A DNA stretch of 34,689 bases from Nitrospira sp. (GCA_005116965.1 SWDG01000027.1:684557-719245), one strand, 5' to 3'; positions 2,264 to 22,784 are shown, counted from the first letter of the stretch. Numbers and translations are program-made. Notes: generated from the sequence alone by a model not told the origin.

Positions 2264-2989
2264 ATGACAAAGCGGATTGGAATCGACGAATTACAAGCAG
2301 GCATGCTGATCGAACAGCTCCATCTCGCCGGTGTGGGGACGTTGCTGCACGACATTGGAAAAACAAAAGTGCCCCTTGAAATCCTGAACAAACCCGGCCG
2401 GTTTGAAGCGCACGAGATGGAGATTATGAAGCAACATGTCCTCAGGGGGGTTGAGGTCTTGGCCAGCACAACCGACTTAGGAGATTCGTACGTCCAGCCT
2501 GCGCTCGAGCACCACGAGCGAGTGAACGGAGCCGGATATCCGAATCGGCGCGCGCAGAAAGACATCAGCCAGTTCGGCCTCATCACGGCCATCGTCGATA
2601 TCTATGACGCGATGACGAGCGATCGGTGCTACCACAAGGGGCAACCTGCGCATCACGCCCTTCAGTTGCTTTATCGCCTCTCGCTCGAAGGCCACCTTGA
2701 CCCGACATTAGTTCAGCAATTCATACAGGTCGTGGGAGTCTACCCCGTCGGATCGGTCGTGGAGCTGAATACGGGCGAAACAGGCATCGTCAAACAGGTC
2801 AACCATGAGACGCCATTGGCTCCGGTGGTGCTCCTCGTGAAGAGTGCGGGAAATACGCTCCTTTCTCAACCAATAGAGCACGATCTCTCCGAGCAAACAG
2901 AGACGCCGCATCGGAGCATTACGACCGTCCTCTCTCCTCAACAAGCCGGCATTGACCCAACCCTCTATCTCGATAAGAAAGCCGCATAA
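2264..2989 (+). CDS. Internally deleted HD-GYP paralogue (copy 1 of 3)
   Basis: This 241-residue protein is a shortened version of the next gene. Residues 1-19 match the first residues of the neighbour's DUF3391 domain. The sequence then jumps straight to GVGTLLHDIGK, which is residue 187 onward in the neighbour, so about 165 codons are missing without a change of frame. The HD pair (His29-Asp30), the HHE motif and a GYP motif (NGAGYP) remain, but the first metal-ligand His of the HD fold (FYHSVN in the neighbour) is gone. Cyclic-di-GMP hydrolysis is therefore doubtful; a binding or partner role, or slow decay, is possible. The frame is fully open and ends in the family's DKKAA tail. ATG 2264 is placed by alignment with copy 2; no good ribosome site is visible. 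Confidence 0.75.
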   Translation: MTKRIGIDELQAGMLIEQLHLAGVGTLLHDIGKTKVPLEILNKPGRFEAHEMEIMKQHVLRGVEVLASTTDLGDSYVQPALEHHERVNGAGYPNRRAQKDISQFGLITAIVDIYDAMTSDRCYHKGQPAHHALQLLYRLSLEGHLDPTLVQQFIQVVGVYPVGSVVELNTGETGIVKQVNHETPLAPVVLLVKSAGNTLLSQPIEHDLSEQTETPHRSITTVLSPQQAGIDPTLYLDKKAA

Positions 2990-3062
2990 CCCACGTCAGC
3001 GCAGCATCGGACTTCACTCGTTTCTCCACACGATACAGCAACCGCTGCGTCTTCTTGAGCCT

Positions 3063-3089
3063 CAAGGTTTGTGTGAACTGGTCCGATAT
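3063..3089 (+). promoter_or_regulatory. Possible sigma-28 (FliA-like) promoter, copy 2
   Basis: CAAGGTTT (3063-3070), an 11-nt spacer, then TCCGATAT (3082-3089) fit the sigma-28 consensus TAAAGTTT-N11-GCCGATAA with the correct spacing. The ATG of the intact HD-GYP gene is at 3126. This would tie the gene to flagellar or motility control. Confidence 0.4.
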
Positions 3090-3125
3090 CGTTTACTGGA
3101 GAGTCCGACTCACCTTCCTATTGCC

Positions 3126-4346
3126 ATGAAAAAACAGATCTCCATCGACGAATTGCAGCCGGGGATGCAGATCGACAAGTTAGATCGGTCCTGGCTGGAC
3201 ACACCATTTTTTCGGCACCGAATGACGGTCACATCCTTCGAGCAAATCGCACAATTAAAAGCTAGCGGAGTACGCACACTGGTGGTGAATCTCGACGCAG
3301 AGGAGATTCCGGACACACCAGACGTGGCACCGGACATCGCCACGGATCCCGTGCTCACGACAGCGGAAGAACCGGCATCGGTGCCACCCACTATCCCATT
3401 TGAGGAGGAACTGCCGGACGCCAGGCGCGTGTATCAAGCCGCCAAGACGATCGTGCAGAACGCCATGCATGACACACGGCTTGGGCGAGCGATCAATATG
3501 GATGAAGTCAATCGGGTCGTCTCCGACATGACCGGCAGCGTGCTCAGAAATCCCGATGCCCTGACCAGTTTATCGAGGCTCAAGAAGTTCGATGAATACA
3601 CCTTCTACCACTCCGTCAATACCTCGATCCTGGCCATGTCCCTGGGACGCGATCTAAGCTTTGAACGTAATGCCCTGCACCAGATCGGAGTCGGAACGCT
3701 GCTGCATGACATCGGCAAAACCAAGATCCCTCCAGAGATTCTCAACAAGCCCGGCCGGTTTGAATCGCATGAGATGGAGATCATGAAGCAGCATGTCCTA
3801 CGGGGGGTGGAGGTGCTCACCACTACGACTGGATTAGGAGATTCCTACCTACGCCCTGCACTCGAACATCACGAACGGGTGGACGGCACCGGGTATCCAC
3901 ACAGACGAGTCAGAAGCGAACTCAGCCAATTCGGCCTCATGGCCGCAGTAGTCGACATCTACGATGCGATCACGAGCGATCGCTGCTACCACAAGGGACG
4001 TGTCGCGCATGAAGCCCTACAGTTTCTCTATCGCCTGGCTCTGGAAGGACATTTGGACACCACCTTGGTCCAGCGATTCATCCACGTAGTAGGAGTCTAT
4101 CCGGTCGGCTCAGTCGTGGAGTTGAATACAGGAGAAGTCGCCATCGTCAAACAGATCCACCACCATGTGCCGCTGACACCAGTGGTGCTCCTGGTCAAGA
4201 GCGCAGGGAATACCTTACTCTCAAAGCCCTATGAGCAGGACCTCGCCGCACAGATAGAAAAACCGCATCGCAAGATCGCGGCCATTCTGGATCCCCAGCA
4301 ATCCGGCATCGACCCGACCGACTACCTCGACAAGAAAGCGGCATGA
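3126..4346 (+). CDS. DUF3391-HD-GYP cyclic-di-GMP phosphodiesterase (copy 2, intact)
   Basis: This 406-residue protein has an N-terminal DUF3391 domain (about 1-130, starting KKQISIDELQPGM) and a C-terminal HD-GYP domain (about 150-320). Visible metal and catalytic residues are His162 (FYHSVN), the HD pair His194-Asp195 with Lys198 (LLHDIGKTK), HHE at 248-250 and the GYP triplet at 256-258 (DGTGYP). The family hydrolyses cyclic-di-GMP to pGpG or GMP in the cytoplasm. An extra C-terminal stretch (325-406) ends in DKKAA. It is the only complete copy in a tandem array. ATG 3126 is set by the DUF3391 family start; the nearest GGAG is far upstream, so translation signals are weak. A sigma-28-like promoter precedes it. 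Confidence 0.9.
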   Translation: MKKQISIDELQPGMQIDKLDRSWLDTPFFRHRMTVTSFEQIAQLKASGVRTLVVNLDAEEIPDTPDVAPDIATDPVLTTAEEPASVPPTIPFEEELPDARRVYQAAKTIVQNAMHDTRLGRAINMDEVNRVVSDMTGSVLRNPDALTSLSRLKKFDEYTFYHSVNTSILAMSLGRDLSFERNALHQIGVGTLLHDIGKTKIPPEILNKPGRFESHEMEIMKQHVLRGVEVLTTTTGLGDSYLRPALEHHERVDGTGYPHRRVRSELSQFGLMAAVVDIYDAITSDRCYHKGRVAHEALQFLYRLALEGHLDTTLVQRFIHVVGVYPVGSVVELNTGEVAIVKQIHHHVPLTPVVLLVKSAGNTLLSKPYEQDLAAQIEKPHRKIAAILDPQQSGIDPTDYLDKKAA

Positions 4347-5317: not shown

Positions 5318-6118
5318 CTAGTCTTTCCCGTGTCTCAGACCATTCATGAATCGTAGCAGTTTTTCTCGAGCACCGGCATCTTCGAGGTTCGCCATTGGAA
5401 GAATATGATTGGCACGAATGTCGAAAGGTACCCGTTTGGGATCAGAGGCAAACATGATCAAATATTTGTGTAAGGCTGTCGCAAATCCGGCCTCAAAATA
5501 TACATTGGCATTGTGGTCAGGCATACCCACCACCACAAAGTGTGACTGACGAATCTTCTCTAAGAGCTCGACGTTAATGGCCTTGGTGGTCGCTATCTCA
5601 TCCATTCTTCTCAACGAGTAACCCGCCTCCGCCATCCAGGGTGTCAGTACATTCTGATACCACTCATCGCACTCCCCGTTGTTATAGGGCATCACCACAA
5701 ATCCATATTGCCGCCTCACAAGGGACTTTACCCTCGCAAGCAGTTCCTTTTCCGCCCACACTGTTAGACCACTGCCATCTCGAGGTTTAGGAAGAAACGT
5801 AAAGTTGGGATTGAAGTGGGAGACTTCCCCACGCACATCAAACTGGGACATGAGCAGAATTGCCTGCGTCCCGAGAACGGTCCCGAGTTCTTCGGCAAGC
5901 AGAAGCCCACCCATCCCGGCACCTTTATAGCGCAAACTGGCATCCACGATCACCATATCGAATAGCCGCTCGCGCACATAGCGGCTTGCTTCCGCAGGTA
6001 GTAACGCACATTCGACCTCATGGCCCAGGTGCTCCTGGAGGACATCCCTGTAGACTTTTAAGACTTCGTCTTGATCATCGACAATGAGAATAGTCAATCG
6101 GTTGAGGCGATCCATCAC
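5318..6118 (-). CDS. Receiver domain fused to a deoxyribosyltransferase/TIR-like domain
   Basis: The 266-residue protein opens with a full receiver domain (about 8-135): acidic pair Asp14-Asp15, phospho-acceptor Asp59 (MVIVDAS) and Lys111 (FLPKP). The second domain (about 138-260) starts YGFVVMPYNN and contains DHNANVYFEAG (201-211) and VPFDIR (230-235). This order, a P-loop-like start, an NVxYExG core and a PFD motif, is that of the nucleoside 2-deoxyribosyltransferase-like/TIR-like superfamily, in which the Glu (here Glu209) is catalytic for N-glycosidic bond cleavage. Its substrate here is unknown; NAD or a nucleotide is a family-based guess. The start overlaps the upstream kinase-hybrid stop by 4 nt (ATGA), indicating coupled translation and a common pathway. 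Confidence 0.75.
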   Translation of the reverse strand: MMDRLNRLTILIVDDQDEVLKVYRDVLQEHLGHEVECALLPAEASRYVRERLFDMVIVDASLRYKGAGMGGLLLAEELGTVLGTQAILLMSQFDVRGEVSHFNPNFTFLPKPRDGSGLTVWAEKELLARVKSLVRRQYGFVVMPYNNGECDEWYQNVLTPWMAEAGYSLRRMDEIATTKAINVELLEKIRQSHFVVVGMPDHNANVYFEAGFATALHKYLIMFASDPKRVPFDIRANHILPMANLEDAGAREKLLRFMNGLRHGKD

Positions 6119-13138: not shown

Positions 13139-14143
13139 ATGCGCAGGTCCCTCGTTCTTTTTATCTCTCTCTTCTTCATGATCTCATCAGCCTACGCTGA
13201 TGGGGGCCATGAGCATCACGCTATCCCCACCCTGAAAAAACAGGTGGGCTCAAAGATCACGTATGGAGAGAACACCGCAGTGTTAACCTTCGGCCCCATC
13301 GATCTCCCGACAGGCCATGGCGAAGGCGATATGGGCGATTCCATGCCGCGGTTCAACTTCCAGTTGCCCGAAGACAAGTATTTGATTGGATTCAAGTCGG
13401 CTCTTTCTACAGTCGACGGAAAAGAATTGCCGAGAAACTATCTGCACCATATCTTGATGATCAACAACACCAAGCCCAGCGTCTCCTGCCCCGGTGAGCC
13501 GCTCTTCTTCGGTGGGGCCGGACTCGAAATGTCCGAGACACAATTCCCTGACGGATACGGTGTCCAGCTTTCGGCGACCGACAAGTTAATGACGGTCGTC
13601 GCGTTCTATCACGGAGCCCCTCCCACCAAGGACGTCATCGCAACGTTTACGATGTATTTCGCCCCGAAGGCCAAGCCGGTCAAAGCAATGGACGTCTATC
13701 AAGTCGGCGTTAACATCGTCTGTTTTACCAAGTTCGGTGATCGACCTTCGGATCAGACGGACGAAGGAATTGAAATCGGTCCGGGTGTCCAAGTCCGTAC
13801 GGCTCCACTGAAGTTCAGTATGGACGGCTGCGTCAAATACGCATATCCGCACGGCCACGATGAATTGCTCCTGATCGCATTGGAGAATAAGACCAAGAAA
13901 CAGACCCTCCTCCGAACTATTCCGGATGCTGAGCGTGATGGAACGCTTCGGGAATTCCTACCCCATCAAGTCTATAAAGACAGCCAGGGATTCCCTATCT
14001 CTAAAGACGAGGACTATGAGATGGTGATGGTCTACCACCATTCTCTACAAAACACTGAAGCCCAACATGGCATGGGCAATTATCTGCTGTATATGACGCC
14101 AGGTGCCTGCTCGGAAAAGGGCAAGACTGCCGCCGCGCATTGA
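13139..14143 (+). CDS. Secreted copper-monooxygenase-like protein (PHM/Nod19-like)
   Basis: The 334-residue exported protein (signal peptide about 1-20) has a His pattern like the two copper sites of peptidylglycine alpha-hydroxylating monooxygenase. His103-His104 (NYLHHIL) and His158 (AFYHGA) would form one site; His238 and His240 (YPHGHDE) and Met312 (HGMGN) would form the other. Spacings are close to those I recall for the animal enzyme (HH, H, HxH, M). Plant Nod19-type proteins share similar motifs. It could bind copper or act as an ascorbate-dependent monooxygenase in the periplasm; the activity is unproven. The His-rich DGGHEHHA start of the mature protein may also bind metal. GGGAGG precedes ATG 13139. 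Confidence 0.6.
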   Translation: MRRSLVLFISLFFMISSAYADGGHEHHAIPTLKKQVGSKITYGENTAVLTFGPIDLPTGHGEGDMGDSMPRFNFQLPEDKYLIGFKSALSTVDGKELPRNYLHHILMINNTKPSVSCPGEPLFFGGAGLEMSETQFPDGYGVQLSATDKLMTVVAFYHGAPPTKDVIATFTMYFAPKAKPVKAMDVYQVGVNIVCFTKFGDRPSDQTDEGIEIGPGVQVRTAPLKFSMDGCVKYAYPHGHDELLLIALENKTKKQTLLRTIPDAERDGTLREFLPHQVYKDSQGFPISKDEDYEMVMVYHHSLQNTEAQHGMGNYLLYMTPGACSEKGKTAAAH

Positions 14144-14441: not shown

Positions 14442-17400
14442 ATGCCGCAGAGTGAGCCTGTTACTATCCTCCTCGTCAATGCGATCGCCGAGGAAATCAA
14501 ACTAGCCACGCTCACTTTTAGAAGATTCTTCCCAAACTGCCGCGTCGAAGCAGTCTACACCGTGGAGGAAGCGCTTCAGTGGGGACATCGGGCATCATGG
14601 CAGCTCATCCTAATCGATGAGGATGTGCTCGCCCAGCGCACTGCGCCTATTTTCTCGGAACTGAAGCGGCTTGTTCCCTATACCACGCTCGTGCTGCAAA
14701 CGGATCATACCGACTCTACCACCGCCTTGAATGCGCTTCGGTCGGGTGCGGATTGTATCCTTTACAAGAAATCACCAGGTTTTCTCGATGAACTGGTCTT
14801 GTACATAAGAGGTGCGCTCGAAACACGTGCCATCCGTATGACGCTCAAACAGACACAGGAACGTCACGACCGCCTCATCGATATCCTCAGCGATGGATTA
14901 TACGAACTCGATGTGGAAGGACGATTCGTCTATCTAAGCCCACTCGTCACTGACATGCTGGGCTACAGGCAGGACGAGTTACTCGGCATTCTCTACTCCG
15001 CAGTCATACCTTCTGATCAACAGGCTCTCGCTCATCATCGTTTCAATGACCGCAGAACAGGGCCGCGAGCAGCCCAGCGTATAGAGATCGATCTCCTCCG
15101 CAAGACCTCCGCTGACAAACCAGGCCATACCCGAGTCCGAGCCGAGATCAGCGCGAGGGGACTGTACGATGTGAATCACCGGTATCTTGGAACGCTGGGT
15201 CTGATGCGCGATATCTCACAGCACCGCCGGCAGACCAAGACCATTCACCAGCTTGAGCATCAACTTCGTGAGTCCGATCAACTTCTCGCCATCGCACGAC
15301 GCGTGTCAACCTTATCAAAAACTCTGCATGCCCCCCACCGTGCGATTCAAGCACAATCTCAACTCCTGCTCAAAACTATCCGCGATGCGCATCTGATGGA
15401 ACAAGTCGATTCGCTCGCGACCTACGCCGCTGAAGCCGTTCATCTAGGAAGCGAACTTATCCAGACAGCGACGGACATCGTCATCCGCCGGGACACTATC
15501 AATGACATCATCGAGGCTGTCCTAACCTCCACTCAACCTCTCCTCACACACACCGATTGGATTGAACGGGCATATGGACAGAATCTTCCGCCCTACACCG
15601 GAAGCCTTGACTCCATGGTGGATCTCGTGGGCATGCTCATCTCCCATGCCCACCGCTATATGGCGGCCATGGGAAACCCTCATCGACTACGACTCAGTAC
15701 CAGGATCAGCCCATCCGGATCCCCTGTAGACCAAGAAACAGCTCAGATTCCACAAGCGACGGCCACCGAATTCGAAATTCACATCCAAGAAACCGACATC
15801 ATCGTCGAGGTTGAGGAACCGCCACTGCAAGGAACAACCGGTGATCTCTTTGCGGCCTATGCGGTAATCAGACAGCTCGGAGGCCGTTGGGATTTTCAGG
15901 CCCCGATCAACGGTTTCTTGTCGATCAAGGTGTGGATTCCGGTGGAACTACCTCCTTTACTAGACAGTCCCGCTGTGCCTGTACTCTCCGCCGTTTCTTC
16001 GACAGCCGGCGCAGTCAAACGGACCGTCGAGGCGATTTTTAAAACTCCGGCGCACGCTTTGTCACCCACGCCCCTCCCCTTCACCCAATCAACGAAGCCT
16101 TTGCCTGAGCGCCGCAAATACATTCGGACGGCTGTCGACCTACCAGCGCGCGTTACCATTGGCACTCGACTGCATGAAGGTATCATGGTGGATCTGAGCC
16201 CAAGCGGAGCCGCGTTGGAGGTCGAAGGTGCACTCCCATCATTTGAACAACAGCCCGTCTACCTGCTCCTGAAGACAGTCGCGAGCATCATCGAACTGGA
16301 TGCCACCGCGTATGACCGAGGAGCCCTGCCCAGACAGGCCGACATTGAGCGGCGAGTGTCCCGTCTTGCACTCGAGTTCAACGCAGTCAATGAGAACCAA
16401 CGGAAGATCCTCGCATCGTTTATCGATGCAGCGCATGTACGCGCGCTTACCATAACGGTCGAAGCTCAGCTTCCGTCGATGGATAGGGCTGGTGACCTTG
16501 CAGCACCCTTTACCGAAGCGGGACTACCAGGCACGGAAGCTCGTGAGACCATGAGAGTTCGAGTCGCGCTGCGGGTCCGCATTGAAACTTCTAACGTTGC
16601 AGCCGGACGTCTGTTGGGCCTCGTCATCAACTTCAGCAGAGGCGGTGTATGCCTGCTCACAGAGCCGTTCCTGAAAATGACTGACGAGGTAGTTGCACTT
16701 CATTTTTCTTCGATCAGCACTCCTACTCAACCAAAACAACAAAACCCAGAAACACCAGACGCGATTCTGATCGGCCGCATTGTCCATCTGGCGCCTGATG
16801 CTACCGCTCCATCCGAGCTCACACCAGGGCCATCACAGCCGAGACAGCGCATCGGCATCCGTTTTTCCCAACTGACGCCGTTTGCAGAACGGGAAATCAA
16901 CCGCTTGATTGCACAACACATCGGCTCCTCCCTAGACATTGCCGATCCAGATAGCCAATCAGTGATCGTCAGCGACAGATGGGAATGCCGGAATATGCAC
17001 GGTCAAGCTATTGCGGTGACAGCCGACCATGCTCGCCATCACATGTCACCCGACACCCCGATCGTCATCGTGATCCCGGGATTCGGATCGACCCAAACTG
17101 ATTACGTCCCACTCTCGTTTCACCTCGCTGCCAACCATCTACACGTGCTTCGCTATGACCACTCGAACCATGTCGGCCAAAGCGAGGGCAGTGTCCTACA
17201 CATCACTCTAAGCAGCATGCAGACTGATCTCCAGAGCGTTCTGGACCTTGTCCACACCACATGGCCCTCCGCTCCAGTCACTCTCCTCGCCGAGGATATT
17301 ACTGCGCGAGTGGCGATGAAAGTTATGGCCCGGAGCACAGCTGCTGATCGGATTTTCCTGTTGAATCCTGTCCTCGACCTAGAAACCGCCCTCTCGACCA

Positions 17401-18653
17401 TCACTTACTCCAATGTCATTGAAACCTACCGACAAGGCCATCGCCGGGGCGTGGTCAATCTCTGGGGCCTCAATGTCAACTTCGACAAGTTTGTCGGCGA
17501 TGCGATCACTGGAGGGTATGTCGACTTAGCCTCGTTACCGGCTGACCTCGCTCAACTGGTCACTCCGCCAATTATTCTCGCCTCTCCCAGGAAGAACCGT
17601 CCCATTGAAGACATCTTCGGTCCTCAACATGAGCCTGGTCGTGCCATGGAAACCGCCTCACCCGTTGTATCGCTGCCGGCCGACCTGTCCGGAGAATCCG
17701 GCGACGACGATCGTCGTGCTGAAGCCTTCGAGATAATCTTGCAGTTGATCTCAACTCCCCTGATCGGCAGTCCTCCCTTGGCTCAGAGCCAGAAGTCGAA
17801 CCGCCGCGATGTGTATCAGCAACGGCAGTTAGAGCATGAGCGGATCCGCCTTCGCTACCACGTCTCGCAGGCTGCACGTAGCGCCTTGTGGGGAGCTCAT
17901 TTGGCCCACCTGCCTCAACTCGAACACTTGCCGAACTATTTGGGCATGACGAATGACCTGTATCGCCGGCTTCTTCCCCTTGAACCAGGCATGACTGTCC
18001 TCGATATCGGCTGCGGCCAAAGACACTTCGCCCGTCTCATGTTGACTAATCAGGCCTATCGGTCGGCGCATCACAGCAAACGGACGACCATCCCTCTCCG
18101 CTACGTCGGGTTGGACCAATCGCATGAATCGCTTAGACTTGCAGAACAGCAGTTCCATACCTTCGCTAAGGAACTGCCCAGCACGCTCAGGGCTGCCGTC
18201 CCAACTGCCCAATTGGTAACAACAAGCTGGATGCGCACAGACTGGAATGCACCGCTTCCTTTCACCAACGGATCGATTGAGCGCATTCTCTGCCATCTCT
18301 CGCTCTCCTTCACGTCCTCACCCCTTCATTGTCTCAGACAGATGCTCCGAGTCTTGCATCCGGACGGAACGGCCGTCGTGACCTGTCTTCAACCGCACAC
18401 CAACCTCTCGACACTATTTCGCCACCACCTGCTCGCCGAAGACCACGATGAATTTGGGTCTCCGGCCAAGATCGTCCTTCACTATCTCGGCCGTCTGCGT
18501 GAAGCCATTTGCCATGGCTTATTGCATATCTATGAGCGGGATGAGTTGGCACGTCTACTGACTCATGCAGGTGCGGGCCCAATCCAGTTTTTTCCTGTCC
18601 TCGACAACCAACTTCTACTCGCCGTTGTACGGAAGACCAAATCTGCTGGGTGA
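14442..18653 (+). CDS. 1403-residue fusion: receiver, PAS, kinase-like, two PilZ, LuxD-like, methyltransferase
   Basis: Domains in order: receiver-like (about 5-125, Asp59 in LILIDED, Lys109); PAS (about 140-262); decayed kinase core (about 285-500), where the H-box is LHAPHRAI and the ATP glycines are lost (GTTGDLFAAYAVIRQLGG); PilZ 1 (557-670; RRKYIR, DLSPSG); PilZ 2 (703-830; MRVRVALRVR, NFSRGG); an alpha/beta hydrolase domain like LuxD (about 838-1110; VIPGFGS, RYDHSNHVGQSEG); and a class I methyltransferase (about 1135-1400; VLDIGCG 1186-1192, YVGLDQS). PilZ domains bind cyclic-di-GMP. In the LuxD-like part the nucleophile place reads AEDITAR (Asp952), where LuxD has Ser in ASLSAR, and the HD of SSHDL aligns with PAD, so acyl transfer is doubtful. 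No membrane segments are seen. A kinase and a sigma-54 regulator follow. Confidence 0.8.
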   Translation: MPQSEPVTILLVNAIAEEIKLATLTFRRFFPNCRVEAVYTVEEALQWGHRASWQLILIDEDVLAQRTAPIFSELKRLVPYTTLVLQTDHTDSTTALNALRSGADCILYKKSPGFLDELVLYIRGALETRAIRMTLKQTQERHDRLIDILSDGLYELDVEGRFVYLSPLVTDMLGYRQDELLGILYSAVIPSDQQALAHHRFNDRRTGPRAAQRIEIDLLRKTSADKPGHTRVRAEISARGLYDVNHRYLGTLGLMRDISQHRRQTKTIHQLEHQLRESDQLLAIARRVSTLSKTLHAPHRAIQAQSQLLLKTIRDAHLMEQVDSLATYAAEAVHLGSELIQTATDIVIRRDTINDIIEAVLTSTQPLLTHTDWIERAYGQNLPPYTGSLDSMVDLVGMLISHAHRYMAAMGNPHRLRLSTRISPSGSPVDQETAQIPQATATEFEIHIQETDIIVEVEEPPLQGTTGDLFAAYAVIRQLGGRWDFQAPINGFLSIKVWIPVELPPLLDSPAVPVLSAVSSTAGAVKRTVEAIFKTPAHALSPTPLPFTQSTKPLPERRKYIRTAVDLPARVTIGTRLHEGIMVDLSPSGAALEVEGALPSFEQQPVYLLLKTVASIIELDATAYDRGALPRQADIERRVSRLALEFNAVNENQRKILASFIDAAHVRALTITVEAQLPSMDRAGDLAAPFTEAGLPGTEARETMRVRVALRVRIETSNVAAGRLLGLVINFSRGGVCLLTEPFLKMTDEVVALHFSSISTPTQPKQQNPETPDAILIGRIVHLAPDATAPSELTPGPSQPRQRIGIRFSQLTPFAEREINRLIAQHIGSSLDIADPDSQSVIVSDRWECRNMHGQAIAVTADHARHHMSPDTPIVIVIPGFGSTQTDYVPLSFHLAANHLHVLRYDHSNHVGQSEGSVLHITLSSMQTDLQSVLDLVHTTWPSAPVTLLAEDITARVAMKVMARSTAADRIFLLNPVLDLETALSTITYSNVIETYRQGHRRGVVNLWGLNVNFDKFVGDAITGGYVDLASLPADLAQLVTPPIILASPRKNRPIEDIFGPQHEPGRAMETASPVVSLPADLSGESGDDDRRAEAFEIILQLISTPLIGSPPLAQSQKSNRRDVYQQRQLEHERIRLRYHVSQAARSALWGAHLAHLPQLEHLPNYLGMTNDLYRRLLPLEPGMTVLDIGCGQRHFARLMLTNQAYRSAHHSKRTTIPLRYVGLDQSHESLRLAEQQFHTFAKELPSTLRAAVPTAQLVTTSWMRTDWNAPLPFTNGSIERILCHLSLSFTSSPLHCLRQMLRVLHPDGTAVVTCLQPHTNLSTLFRHHLLAEDHDEFGSPAKIVLHYLGRLREAICHGLLHIYERDELARLLTHAGAGPIQFFPVLDNQLLLAVVRKTKSAG

Positions 18654-18754
18654 AACAGCCTTTCGGGTGTATACTTCTAACCTAGTGATGATACGTAGAC
18701 TCGTTTCCACCACAACGAACTACGCGGACCGATACAACTTCGCGCACCATACTC

Positions 18755-20032
18755 ATGACAGATCATGGAGCTCCTCAATCGAACCCTGATCAGGCAGACA
18801 CAACATCACTGCAACGACTCACAAAATTCGCGCGGGACATAGGGTACCCGACAAGCCTTCCCATCATCGCAGAACGAATTCTTTCCGGTCTCTCCGAAGC
18901 ATCCCGGCACACTCTAGGGCTACTATATCTGCTTGATCATGAGCGAGAATGCTTTCGCTTGGTGAATATACCCACGCCGACTCCTTCAATAGCCGCGCCT
19001 CCCGTCGTTCCTCTCAAGCACCCTCTCGTTCAACAACTGGCTGATCGCCAGGACATCCTCGACTCGTCCGTGCTGGCCGACTCCCTGCGCACGACATTGC
19101 TGGACAACACAGCGGATGCCCAGTTCGCCACACTTCCCATTAATCTGGCCATCCCGCTGCTGAATCGAGGTCGGTTGATCGCCTTCGTAGTCCTCCAATC
19201 TCAAATAGAATCCACAGTCATCCCCTCCTATACCCTAGCACTACTGAGCGCTATGGCTCAGAGCGCCGCCAATGCGCTCGACTCGTTCCTATTGTACGAG
19301 GACCTTCATCAATCGAAAGTCCTCATGCGACGAACTGATCGACTTCGTTCATTGGAAACCATTGCAGGGGGCTTCGCGCATGAAATCCGAAACCCCTTGA
19401 CGTCGATTAAGACGTTCATTCAGCTGGCTCCGGAACGGAAGGATGACAGTCAATTTATCGGTGAATTTAGCCGTATTGTGCTCGAGGACGTCAATCGGAT
19501 TGAACGGTTGATTCAAGAGATTCTCGACTACGCTCGATACATGGAACCTCGGTTGACCGATGAGGATCTGAATGAAATCGTCTCGTCGTGCCTGTACTTC
19601 ATCCAAGTGAAGGCCGACAGCCGAGGGATCAAGATTGAAAAAGATTTGGCGCCGGAGCTTCCTCGTGGCATGTTAGATCGGCAGCAAATCAAACAAGTCC
19701 TCTTAAACCTGCTCTTGAATGCGATGGATGCCATCGGCGACAAAAACGGAACCCTTCGCGTACGGACCACTCAGCTAAAAAAAGCGGGCGGTGAGGTGTG
19801 GATACAGATACAGATCGAGGATACGGGACACGGCATCACACCTGAAAACCTTGACCATATCTTCGATCCTTTCTTTACCACGAAGTATGCGAGCACCATA
19901 AACGAAGGAACTGGTTTGGGACTGACCATCGCTCATCAGATCGTTCGGGAGCATCGAGGAGAGATTCAAGTTCAGAGCACGGAAGGGATTGGAACGACTT
20001 TCCTCATCAATCTTCCCTCCCATCGAGATTAG
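18755..20032 (+). CDS. GAF-domain sensor histidine kinase (NtrB type)
   Basis: This 425-residue soluble kinase has a GAF-like sensor domain (about 25-178). The dimerisation domain has His209 in GGFAHEIRNPLTSIKTF. The ATP domain has N-box Asn322 (LLLNAMDA), DTGHG (356-360), FDPFFTTK and GTGLGL (385-390), so all kinase boxes are intact. With no membrane segment it should sense an internal ligand or partner. It lies 16 nt before a sigma-54 response regulator, its evident partner. The start ATG 18755 lacks a clear ribosome site, and the 101-nt gap to the large fusion gene shows no terminator, so the genes are probably cotranscribed. Confidence 0.92.
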   Translation: MTDHGAPQSNPDQADTTSLQRLTKFARDIGYPTSLPIIAERILSGLSEASRHTLGLLYLLDHERECFRLVNIPTPTPSIAAPPVVPLKHPLVQQLADRQDILDSSVLADSLRTTLLDNTADAQFATLPINLAIPLLNRGRLIAFVVLQSQIESTVIPSYTLALLSAMAQSAANALDSFLLYEDLHQSKVLMRRTDRLRSLETIAGGFAHEIRNPLTSIKTFIQLAPERKDDSQFIGEFSRIVLEDVNRIERLIQEILDYARYMEPRLTDEDLNEIVSSCLYFIQVKADSRGIKIEKDLAPELPRGMLDRQQIKQVLLNLLLNAMDAIGDKNGTLRVRTTQLKKAGGEVWIQIQIEDTGHGITPENLDHIFDPFFTTKYASTINEGTGLGLTIAHQIVREHRGEIQVQSTEGIGTTFLINLPSHRD

Positions 20033-20048: not shown

Positions 20049-21479
20049 GTGGAAAGTTTGGCTGTTAGAAAACGGGTTCTGCTGATTGATGACGATCCCC
20101 GAGTCCGTGCCTCCCTCAAGATAGTTCTCGAACCGATCTATGACATTCTCCAGGCATGTGATGGACAGGAGGGTCTCGATGTGTTTCGGAAGGATGAACC
20201 CGACCTCATCCTCCTCGATGTCATTCTCCCGGGAACCGACGGCCTCGCAGTGCTTCAAACGCTTCGTATGGAGAGCAAGAGGACTCCTGTCATCATGCTC
20301 ACAGGTACCAAATCTGTCAAAACAGCCGTCGACGCCATGAAGTTCGGAGCTGCTGACTATCTCTCAAAACCGTTCGACGTCGATGAGCTCCGTATCATCA
20401 TCGATCGCGCCCTAAACTCTTCCGAATTGGAGCAAGAGGTCAAGCAGCTGCGGGCTCAAGTCGTCCAGCGCTATGCCTTCCATAATCTGATTGGCAAAAG
20501 CCAGGGTATGCAAGAGATCTACTCAAAAATCGAGCAGGTCGCCGATAGCCGCACCACGGTGCTGATTACCGGAGAAAGTGGCACAGGGAAGGAATTAGTC
20601 GCAAAAGCCTTGCACTACAACAGTTCTCGACGCGAGCGCCCCTTCATTGCCCTGAACTGCGCCGCGTTGCCCGAAACGCTCATAGAAAGCGAACTCTTCG
20701 GCCACGAAAAAGGGTCGTTCACGGATGCCACAGCCCGACGCGTCGGACAGTTTGAATTGGCAAACACCGGAACGTTGTTCCTGGACGAAATCGGCGACTT
20801 GAGTCCGATCACGCAAGCGAAGCTCCTGCGTGTCATCCAAGAGCGAGAATTTACGAGAATCGGCGGTGTTCAATCAATCAAGGTCGATGTTCGTATCGTG
20901 GCGGCGACGAACAAGAATCTTGATGATCTCGTTCGAAAAGCGCAGTTTCGAGAAGACCTCTACTACCGCATCAACGTCATTGCGCTCGTTCTCCCCCCAC
21001 TCCGTGAACGCGGCGAGGATATTCCCCTCCTGGCCAAACATTTCCTCGAGAAACGGCTGGACGAGGAACGACGCCCTCGTATCGAATTCGGAAAAGAGGC
21101 ATTGGAGCTTCTAACTCGATATTCTTGGCCTGGCAATGTTCGCGAGCTGGAAAACTTCGTCGAGCAGGCGTTCATCTGGTCCCAGCATGCTGCGCAAATT
21201 ACTCCGGAGCATTTGCCGACGATGATCAAGAATGACGCTCGTTCAACATCACTTCGAGACGATACCCTCGCCGGTCGCATGTCGCTTGAAAAAGCCGTGA
21301 TGGAGTTTGAACGAGAGATTATCCTTGATGCGTTAAAACGGACTAATTACGTACAAACCCACGCCGCGAACCTACTTGGGATTAGCCGACGGATGCTGAA
21401 ATACCGAATGGACACCCTCAGCATCGGTCGTCCTGACAGTTCATCCACGCAAGAGCCAGACTTGCCCATGCAAGAATGA
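20049..21479 (+). CDS. Sigma-54-dependent response regulator (NtrC type)
   Basis: This 476-residue protein has an intact receiver (acidic DDD at 14-16, phospho-acceptor Asp57 in LILLDVILP, Lys107 in LSKPF). Its AAA+ domain has Walker A GESGTGKE (175-182), the sigma-54 contact loop as GSFTDA (222-227) and Walker B LFLDEI (243-248). A Fis-type helix-turn-helix closes it (about 425-460, AANLLGISRRMLKYRM). It starts with GTG 20049, preceded by AAGGAG at the right distance. It should be phosphorylated by the kinase immediately upstream and activate sigma-54 promoters. A sigma-54-like element sits before the next gene, and a much better one is at 4584. Confidence 0.93.
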   Translation: MESLAVRKRVLLIDDDPRVRASLKIVLEPIYDILQACDGQEGLDVFRKDEPDLILLDVILPGTDGLAVLQTLRMESKRTPVIMLTGTKSVKTAVDAMKFGAADYLSKPFDVDELRIIIDRALNSSELEQEVKQLRAQVVQRYAFHNLIGKSQGMQEIYSKIEQVADSRTTVLITGESGTGKELVAKALHYNSSRRERPFIALNCAALPETLIESELFGHEKGSFTDATARRVGQFELANTGTLFLDEIGDLSPITQAKLLRVIQEREFTRIGGVQSIKVDVRIVAATNKNLDDLVRKAQFREDLYYRINVIALVLPPLRERGEDIPLLAKHFLEKRLDEERRPRIEFGKEALELLTRYSWPGNVRELENFVEQAFIWSQHAAQITPEHLPTMIKNDARSTSLRDDTLAGRMSLEKAVMEFEREIILDALKRTNYVQTHAANLLGISRRMLKYRMDTLSIGRPDSSSTQEPDLPMQE

Positions 21480-21656: not shown

Positions 21657-22784
21657 ATGATCACAACCTCTCGTCAGTCAGGAACACCACCGACAGTCCT
21701 CGTGGTTGATGATGAAGCGGGGCCCCGCGATGCTCTTAAATTCATACTTCGTACCTTCTGCAACGTTCGGTCTGCAGAGAACGCCAAGATGGCCCTCGAG
21801 GTCATCGGTCAGGAGCCCATTGACTTGATCACACTCGATCAAAAGCTTCCGGATCGTCATGGGCTCGAGCTTCTCAGAGACATCAAGTACCATCACCCCA
21901 ACGTGGAGGTCATTGTCGTCACGGGGTACGGGAGCCTGAAGTCTGCCATGGAGGGTATCCGTCAGGGAGCCGCTGGTTACTTACTGAAGCCTTTCAACGC
22001 GAACGAGCTGACCACCCTTATTCAGCAGACAATGGACAAGAAGCGCCGACTCGACTTTCTTCGCTACTGCCTTCGGACACTACCAGACCTGTGGGGCTCG
22101 GAGGAAGAGAGTGCACGTGCATGGGACAAAATTAAGACGGAATATGCGTCGCTCTCTATTCACACGCAGAACTATGATGCTTTGCAGCAAGACGAGATGA
22201 CCCTGCTTCCACTCCTATCCGATGTTTTGGAAGCCACAGACCGCCAATTACTCAATCATTCGAGCCGAGTGAGTTTCTATGCTACGTTGATGGCTAGCCG
22301 ACTCAATCTCACCGTGTCCGAGCAAAAAGCGTTGGCCCTGGGAGCCTTTCTGCATGATGTAGGAAAAACAAGCCTCCCATCATATAGGTTCTCAGAGGAC
22401 CAGATCTTTCCGTCAGGCGAGGCCTCCCTCTGTAGAGAACACGTCGACAGCGGTGCACGAATGAGTGCGCCGTTGGGTTTGCCAATTGAGGCGAGGCAAA
22501 TCATCGCATCCCACCACGAGCGATGGGATGGACAGGGCTACCCTCATGGACTCCGAGGCGCGGATATTCCCTTACTGGCGCGTATTGTCGGCATCGCCCA
22601 AACGTTTGATCATCTGACCGCCGACGCACCTGGACGCATCGCCCTGCCCCTGGATGCCGCAATCCGTCAGATCTCACTTCAATCTCATACGCATTTTGAC
22701 CCGCAGTTGCTTGAACTCTTCGTTCAGGTCGTAAAGGACTCCCCCATCTCGCCTCGCGCCATGGAGATCGCTCCCGCCGCTTAA
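21657..22784 (+). CDS. Response regulator with HD-GYP output (RpfG-like)
   Basis: The 375-residue protein pairs a receiver (acidic DDE at 18-20, phospho-acceptor Asp61 in LITLDQKLP, Lys111 in LLKPF) with a C-terminal HD-GYP domain (about 190-370). Visible residues are His201 (NHSSRVS), His233-Asp234 (FLHDVGK), the HHERWDGQGYP motif and GYP at 294-296. The likely activity is cyclic-di-GMP phosphodiesterase switched by phosphorylation. The upstream kinase is the natural donor. In the same block the large fusion carries two PilZ cyclic-di-GMP-binding domains. The stop codon lies 1 nt from that of recN on the opposite strand. Confidence 0.9.
   Translation: MITTSRQSGTPPTVLVVDDEAGPRDALKFILRTFCNVRSAENAKMALEVIGQEPIDLITLDQKLPDRHGLELLRDIKYHHPNVEVIVVTGYGSLKSAMEGIRQGAAGYLLKPFNANELTTLIQQTMDKKRRLDFLRYCLRTLPDLWGSEEESARAWDKIKTEYASLSIHTQNYDALQQDEMTLLPLLSDVLEATDRQLLNHSSRVSFYATLMASRLNLTVSEQKALALGAFLHDVGKTSLPSYRFSEDQIFPSGEASLCREHVDSGARMSAPLGLPIEARQIIASHHERWDGQGYPHGLRGADIPLLARIVGIAQTFDHLTADAPGRIALPLDAAIRQISLQSHTHFDPQLLELFVQVVKDSPISPRAMEIAPAA

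Follow-up and report, generated by a model that had tools for sequence, protein, structure and literature searches.

What kind of protein is encoded by a gene in which seven signalling and enzyme domains are joined, and does it act as an enzyme or as a regulator? This question is raised by a stretch of 34,689 nucleotides of a Nitrospira sp. genome (GCA_005116965.1, SWDG01000027.1:684557-719245; the window), in which a gene on the plus strand (14442..18653) encodes a giant protein of 1,403 amino acids with the order receiver (REC), PAS, pseudo-histidine kinase, PilZ, PilZ, pseudo-LuxD and methyltransferase.

Integrity and distribution of the giant gene

The open reading frame between positions 14442 and 18653 comprises 1,403 codons with zero internal stops. 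Full-length orthologues (44–94% amino acid sequence identity) with the same start and length are encoded in many Nitrospira genomes. Since the start MPQSEP and the same frame recur in independent genomes, an assembly artefact joining separate genes, which had been named as one way of refuting the original prediction, is ruled out. A match to the giant was present in 39 of the 79 Nitrospira species examined, and several sister genera encode giants of about 1,400 amino acids at the same locus. A scan with the single protein beyond the Nitrospirota returned only records from Nitrospira or Nitrospiraceae; within the Nitrospirota a family profile was used. No account of this domain order was found in the literature (most subscription journals lie outside the coverage of the searches), in line with the earlier statement that no described protein of this order was known.

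A few copies of the gene are damaged. The frame is broken in the copies of two genomes, G001 (L046/L019) and G002 (L045/L018), which are either pseudogenes or assembly errors; many of the compared genomes are metagenome-assembled, and errors may account for both cases. The copy in G014 contains one stop, which may likewise be an error.

Domain architecture

All seven regions of the predicted architecture were recovered by Pfam, profile or fold comparisons, with limits close to those first proposed. Pfam assigned the two PilZ domains (E 1.5e-14), the methyltransferase (5.4e-10), the Acyl_transf_2/LuxD region (6.8e-10) and the PAS domain (2.7e-9; residues 138–262, 14853..15227). The REC-like domain (residues 4–130, 14451..14831) falls short of the Pfam cut-off by sequence, yet its fold is clearly that of a receiver (Z 17.7; 134 aligned residues, rmsd 3.2). 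Two AF2 models were calculated from locus-derived alignments. In the N-terminal model (residues 1–840) the single domains are good, but their arrangement is unreliable (pLDDT 71, pTM 0.29), and in the PDB fold search with this model the list was taken up by REC matches. The C-terminal model (residues 545–1403) is confident (pLDDT 81.5, pTM 0.77).

The REC domain keeps D59, T87 and K109, while the Mg2+-binding acidic pair is replaced by N13-A14. The kinase-like region (residues 266–505, 15237..15956) aligned to the neighbouring histidine kinase with an hhalign probability of 95.5% (E 1.3e-8). Its H box is altered, with Lys293 in place of the phosphorylated histidine, and the N and G boxes are lost, in agreement with the predicted loss of the ATP-binding glycines. 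The histidine is missing in most orthologues and retained in a few; the N and G boxes are gone in all giants having the region.

Both PilZ domains carry the cyclic-di-GMP (c-di-GMP) contact motifs ascribed to them, R558xxxR562 (in RRKYIR) and D584LSPSG589 in PilZ1 (16098..16445) and R701xxxR705 (RETMR) and N730FSRGG735 in PilZ2 (16524..16931). These RxxxR and D/NxSxxG motifs are the canonical ones of PilZ receptors of the YcgR/YpfA type (PF07238), from which the giant differs by its tandem PilZ arrangement within a REC-PAS-pseudokinase/LuxD-methyltransferase fusion. PilZ2 is the better conserved of the two, with both motifs in nearly all orthologues.

The following domain (16959..17771) has an alpha/beta hydrolase fold. 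LuxD of Vibrio harveyi, a myristoyl-ACP thioesterase (1tht), was its top profile match (E 4.5e-30) and also the best PDB match of the C-terminal model (Z 23.2, 274 residues aligned, rmsd 3.5; Foldseek E 1.6e-12), the entire hydrolase domain aligning to LuxD. The LuxD catalytic triad (S114/D211/H241), in contrast, is absent from the giant: Ser114 corresponds to Asp952, Asp211 to Arg1050, and the triad histidine has no counterpart. The nucleophile position reads AED in 20 of 20 aligned Nitrospira sequences. Against NCBIfam NF052253 the giant scored 38 bits (curated cut-off 420 bits). Unlike LuxD, the hydrolase domain is fused to PilZ and methyltransferase domains, and no luxCDE context was seen around the giant.

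The C-terminal domain (17859..18650; motif I LDIGCGQRHF, motif II VGLD) is of the class I methyltransferase type, with 5w7k as a fold match (Z 19.8), so that structure prediction gave both the LuxD-like and the methyltransferase fold. A less likely alternative to a regulatory role is that the giant is a c-di-GMP-gated methyltransferase, in which the LuxD-like fold would only bind an acyl substrate for methylation by the C-terminal domain. Most Nitrospira orthologues keep the SAM-binding motif I (DIGCG, preceded by leucine in LDIGCG) and the acidic residue of motif II at the end of beta 2, the methyltransferase region evolves about as slowly as the other domains, and the model of the C-terminal half is confident (see above). 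The window protein, however, has lost the third glycine of motif I (GCGQR), and in several sister genera the giants retain the architecture but have lost the acidic residue, motif I or both, which argues against this alternative. For E. coli YnbC (b1410), whose annotation as a hydrolase/methyltransferase recalls the domain pair of the giant, kinship was not supported by BLASTP, in which neither the giant nor the deepest short form of the family gave a match.

Gene neighbourhood

The giant gene is preceded by a gene for a conserved 334-amino-acid protein of unknown family (13139..14143) and followed by genes for a soluble GAF-HisKA-HATPase histidine kinase (18755..20032), a sigma-54 response regulator of the NtrC/AtoC type (20049..21479) and a REC-HD-GYP protein (21657..22784), a probable c-di-GMP phosphodiesterase, all on the plus strand. 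Across genera, the order at giant loci is RNaseH-like, PP2C, SnoaL-like, 334-amino-acid protein, giant, GAF kinase, sigma-54 regulator, REC-HD-GYP and RecN, with exceptions such as L108, where a kinase match was not found. For the listed genes that follow giants, the prediction gave no transmembrane segment, and the window kinase has none either. PrsK/PrsR is the two-component system of XrtA/PEP-CTERM (PMC9850573); the sigma-54 regulator described here and the 7TM-GAF kinases (see below) score against the corresponding models (TIGR02916/TIGR02915), all under the curated cut-offs, and the kinase beside the giant differs from PrsK in having no membrane region.

The 334-amino-acid protein is strongly conserved, with a dN/dS of 0.02–0.06, and matched no Pfam or NCBIfam model. 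A second HD-GYP gene in the window (2952-4346) encodes a stand-alone DUF3391-HD-GYP protein. On the minus strand, a gene at 5318-6118, adjoining a REC-HATPase gene, shows a weak receiver domain together with a match resembling nucleoside deoxyribosyltransferases. A scan of the window for sigma-54 promoters gave no signal (16 sites, 16.2 expected). In the single-contig genome G060 (C1, about 1356.7–1361.9 kb; L150/L061), an apparent deletion has joined the giant, without a change of frame, to the part of the sigma-54 regulator that comprises AAA+ and Fis. The resulting protein has 1,714 amino acids and shares 86% identity with the regulator of the window across 300 amino acids; the kinase gene adjacent to the fused giant is missing.

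Loss of the giant and selection

The neighbours are more widespread than the giant: a match to the 334-amino-acid protein was present in 76 of the 79 Nitrospira genomes and a match to the kinase in 72, a few of the latter being the paralogue. Where the giant is lacking, the 334-amino-acid gene and the kinase gene lie about 300 bp apart in the genomes examined. Several of these gaps hold a remnant of the 3' end of the giant gene, extending for about 215 bp in three genomes (about 80% identity) and for about 75 bp in three others (78–81%), which demonstrates deletion at those sites; in the most diverged gaps the similarity was not significant. On a DNA tree of the neighbouring genes, four changes are needed, three of them forced by well-supported branches. 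The giant has thus been deleted repeatedly within Nitrospira while its neighbours were kept. As it is gone from about half of the genus and the kinase-regulator pair is retained, it is not required for the pair and is accessory to a core kinase-regulator locus.

The dN/dS of the giant (0.30–0.35, compared to 0.02–0.22 for the tested neighbours) indicates purifying selection, weaker than on the neighbours. It is improbable that the giant is a mere remnant of an enzyme, without a function today and in the course of being lost. This would fit the at least three forced changes on the neighbour-gene tree, the degraded 3' ends left behind at several sites without the gene, the frame-broken copies in two genomes and the fact that the giant is the fastest-evolving gene of its cluster. 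Against it, dozens of species keep the full-length frame, dN/dS lies at 0.2–0.35, the PilZ2 motifs are conserved, and Asp952 is conserved across genera, unlike scattered substitutions.

The stop codon of the giant gene is overlapped by a promoter-like block on the plus strand (CTGGxTGAAAC-N10-GTGTATACT, 18646..18675), which is conserved in most giant loci and the core of which is kept where the giant was deleted. The block is probably used by the kinase gene, and it may be the reason why the last residues of the giant (KSAG and similar) are conserved. Among the short copies compared, none was seen to have it. Its use as a regulon marker was rejected, as the genome has a single copy at up to two mismatches, the perfect site itself, and one further match with three mismatches.

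Short relatives and family history

A profile of the C-terminal half detected relatives in 71 of the 296 Nitrospirota genomes that were sampled. The short relatives retain Ser-Asp-His and an intact methyltransferase motif; the deepest short form found (L152, 549 amino acids) is without any PilZ domain, and in one genus (g12) a giant and a short copy occur together. The giant is, as supported by sequence and structure, a member of a family of PilZ-LuxD-methyltransferase proteins with catalytic-looking short members. The C-terminal halves of the giants cluster together with modest support (87/74, and in 88% of bootstrap trees). As the tree has no root and one odd giant, L108, stands on a long branch, the grouping is supported but not proven. 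The nucleophile residue is Ser in all 13 short copies, Asn in the three intermediates and Asp in 21 of 22 giants sampled across the family. That Asp952 acts as a new nucleophile, for a different hydrolytic chemistry of the kind known from haloalkane dehalogenases, is highly improbable despite this conservation at the nucleophile elbow, as known Asp-nucleophile hydrolases also require a histidine and the triad positions of the giants show no conserved His or Asp.

A 7TM-GAF histidine kinase is encoded directly downstream of the short copies wherever the downstream DNA is sufficient (L112 is among those where it is not), several of these copies being closely related and not independent. Members of the giant clade have the REC-PAS-pseudokinase part and a hydrolase that has lost its triad, and their partner kinases are without the 7TM sensor. 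A paralogous 7TM-GAF kinase occurs in nine Nitrospira genomes, in all of which a gene for an acyl-ACP reductase (PDB 6jzu match, E 2.7e-20) is located close by on the same contig; the reductase gene is immediately upstream of a 7TM-GAF kinase gene at the two loci inspected directly, L149 (3748-7854) and L151 (4431-8435). The reductase is not homologous to the LuxD-type enzyme of the short forms, and its N-terminus bears a weak likeness to PilZ (E 0.008, below the cut-off). That two unrelated enzymes of the acyl-ACP type occupy this position supports the view that the 7TM-GAF kinases may take an input derived from acyl chains. By analogy only, the PhcBS operon of Ralstonia may be compared, where the genes for a methyltransferase and a sensor histidine kinase lie side by side in a system (PhcB/PhcS/PhcR, PMC8578825) that signals with a fatty-acid methyl ester; the comparison applies to the short forms only, which differ by the additional LuxD-type hydrolase and PilZ domain. 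Taken together, the comparison suggests that the giant descends from an acyl-ACP-processing enzyme and membrane-sensor kinase pair, and that remodelling has turned it into a regulator, responsive to c-di-GMP, of the neighbouring two-component system.

Function of the giant protein

Of the two roles initially considered, modifier or scaffold, the first is not supported for the LuxD part, the triad of which is lost in all aligned Nitrospira orthologues, while a scaffolding or regulatory role is better supported. With a probability of roughly 55%, we consider the giant to be a c-di-GMP-binding regulatory adaptor, and not a LuxD enzyme, of the circuit formed by the adjacent GAF histidine kinase, sigma-54 regulator and HD-GYP protein. 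The neighbouring kinase, or another one, would signal to the REC domain and c-di-GMP would be bound by the PilZ pair; the dead hydrolase and the methyltransferase fold might form a module for docking or for sensing a ligand (acyl chain, SAM/SAH) and thereby adjust the output of the kinase, and the HD-GYP protein of the operon would reset c-di-GMP. Several observations count against the adaptor: about half of the genus has the kinase-regulator pair but no giant, the methyltransferase motifs are intact in most Nitrospira, so that a methylation activity may persist, the D/N residue of PilZ1 is missing from some orthologues, and the AF2 model of the N-terminal half has no confident domain arrangement.

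The ancestral short form may have released and methylated an acyl chain, to be sensed by its 7TM kinase. A wider scheme, which we hold to be speculative and rather doubtful as a whole, would be a c-di-GMP-linked lipid-signalling module of the Nitrospirota, in which a PilZ-fused acyl-ACP enzyme (either a LuxD-type thioesterase with methyltransferase or an acyl-ACP reductase) makes a fatty-acid-derived signal that is read by the adjacent 7TM-GAF kinase. The giant would then be an inherited pseudoenzyme, a synthase turned into an intracellular signal receptor.

Nitrospira are major nitrite oxidisers and include the comammox organisms. Little literature on c-di-GMP effectors of Nitrospira was found. 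The family described here forms a readable series, leading from a catalytic-looking acyl enzyme with a membrane kinase to a multi-domain pseudoenzyme with a soluble kinase, which makes the conversion of an enzyme into a receptor testable, and its short forms predict a possible pair of lipid-signal synthase and sensor.
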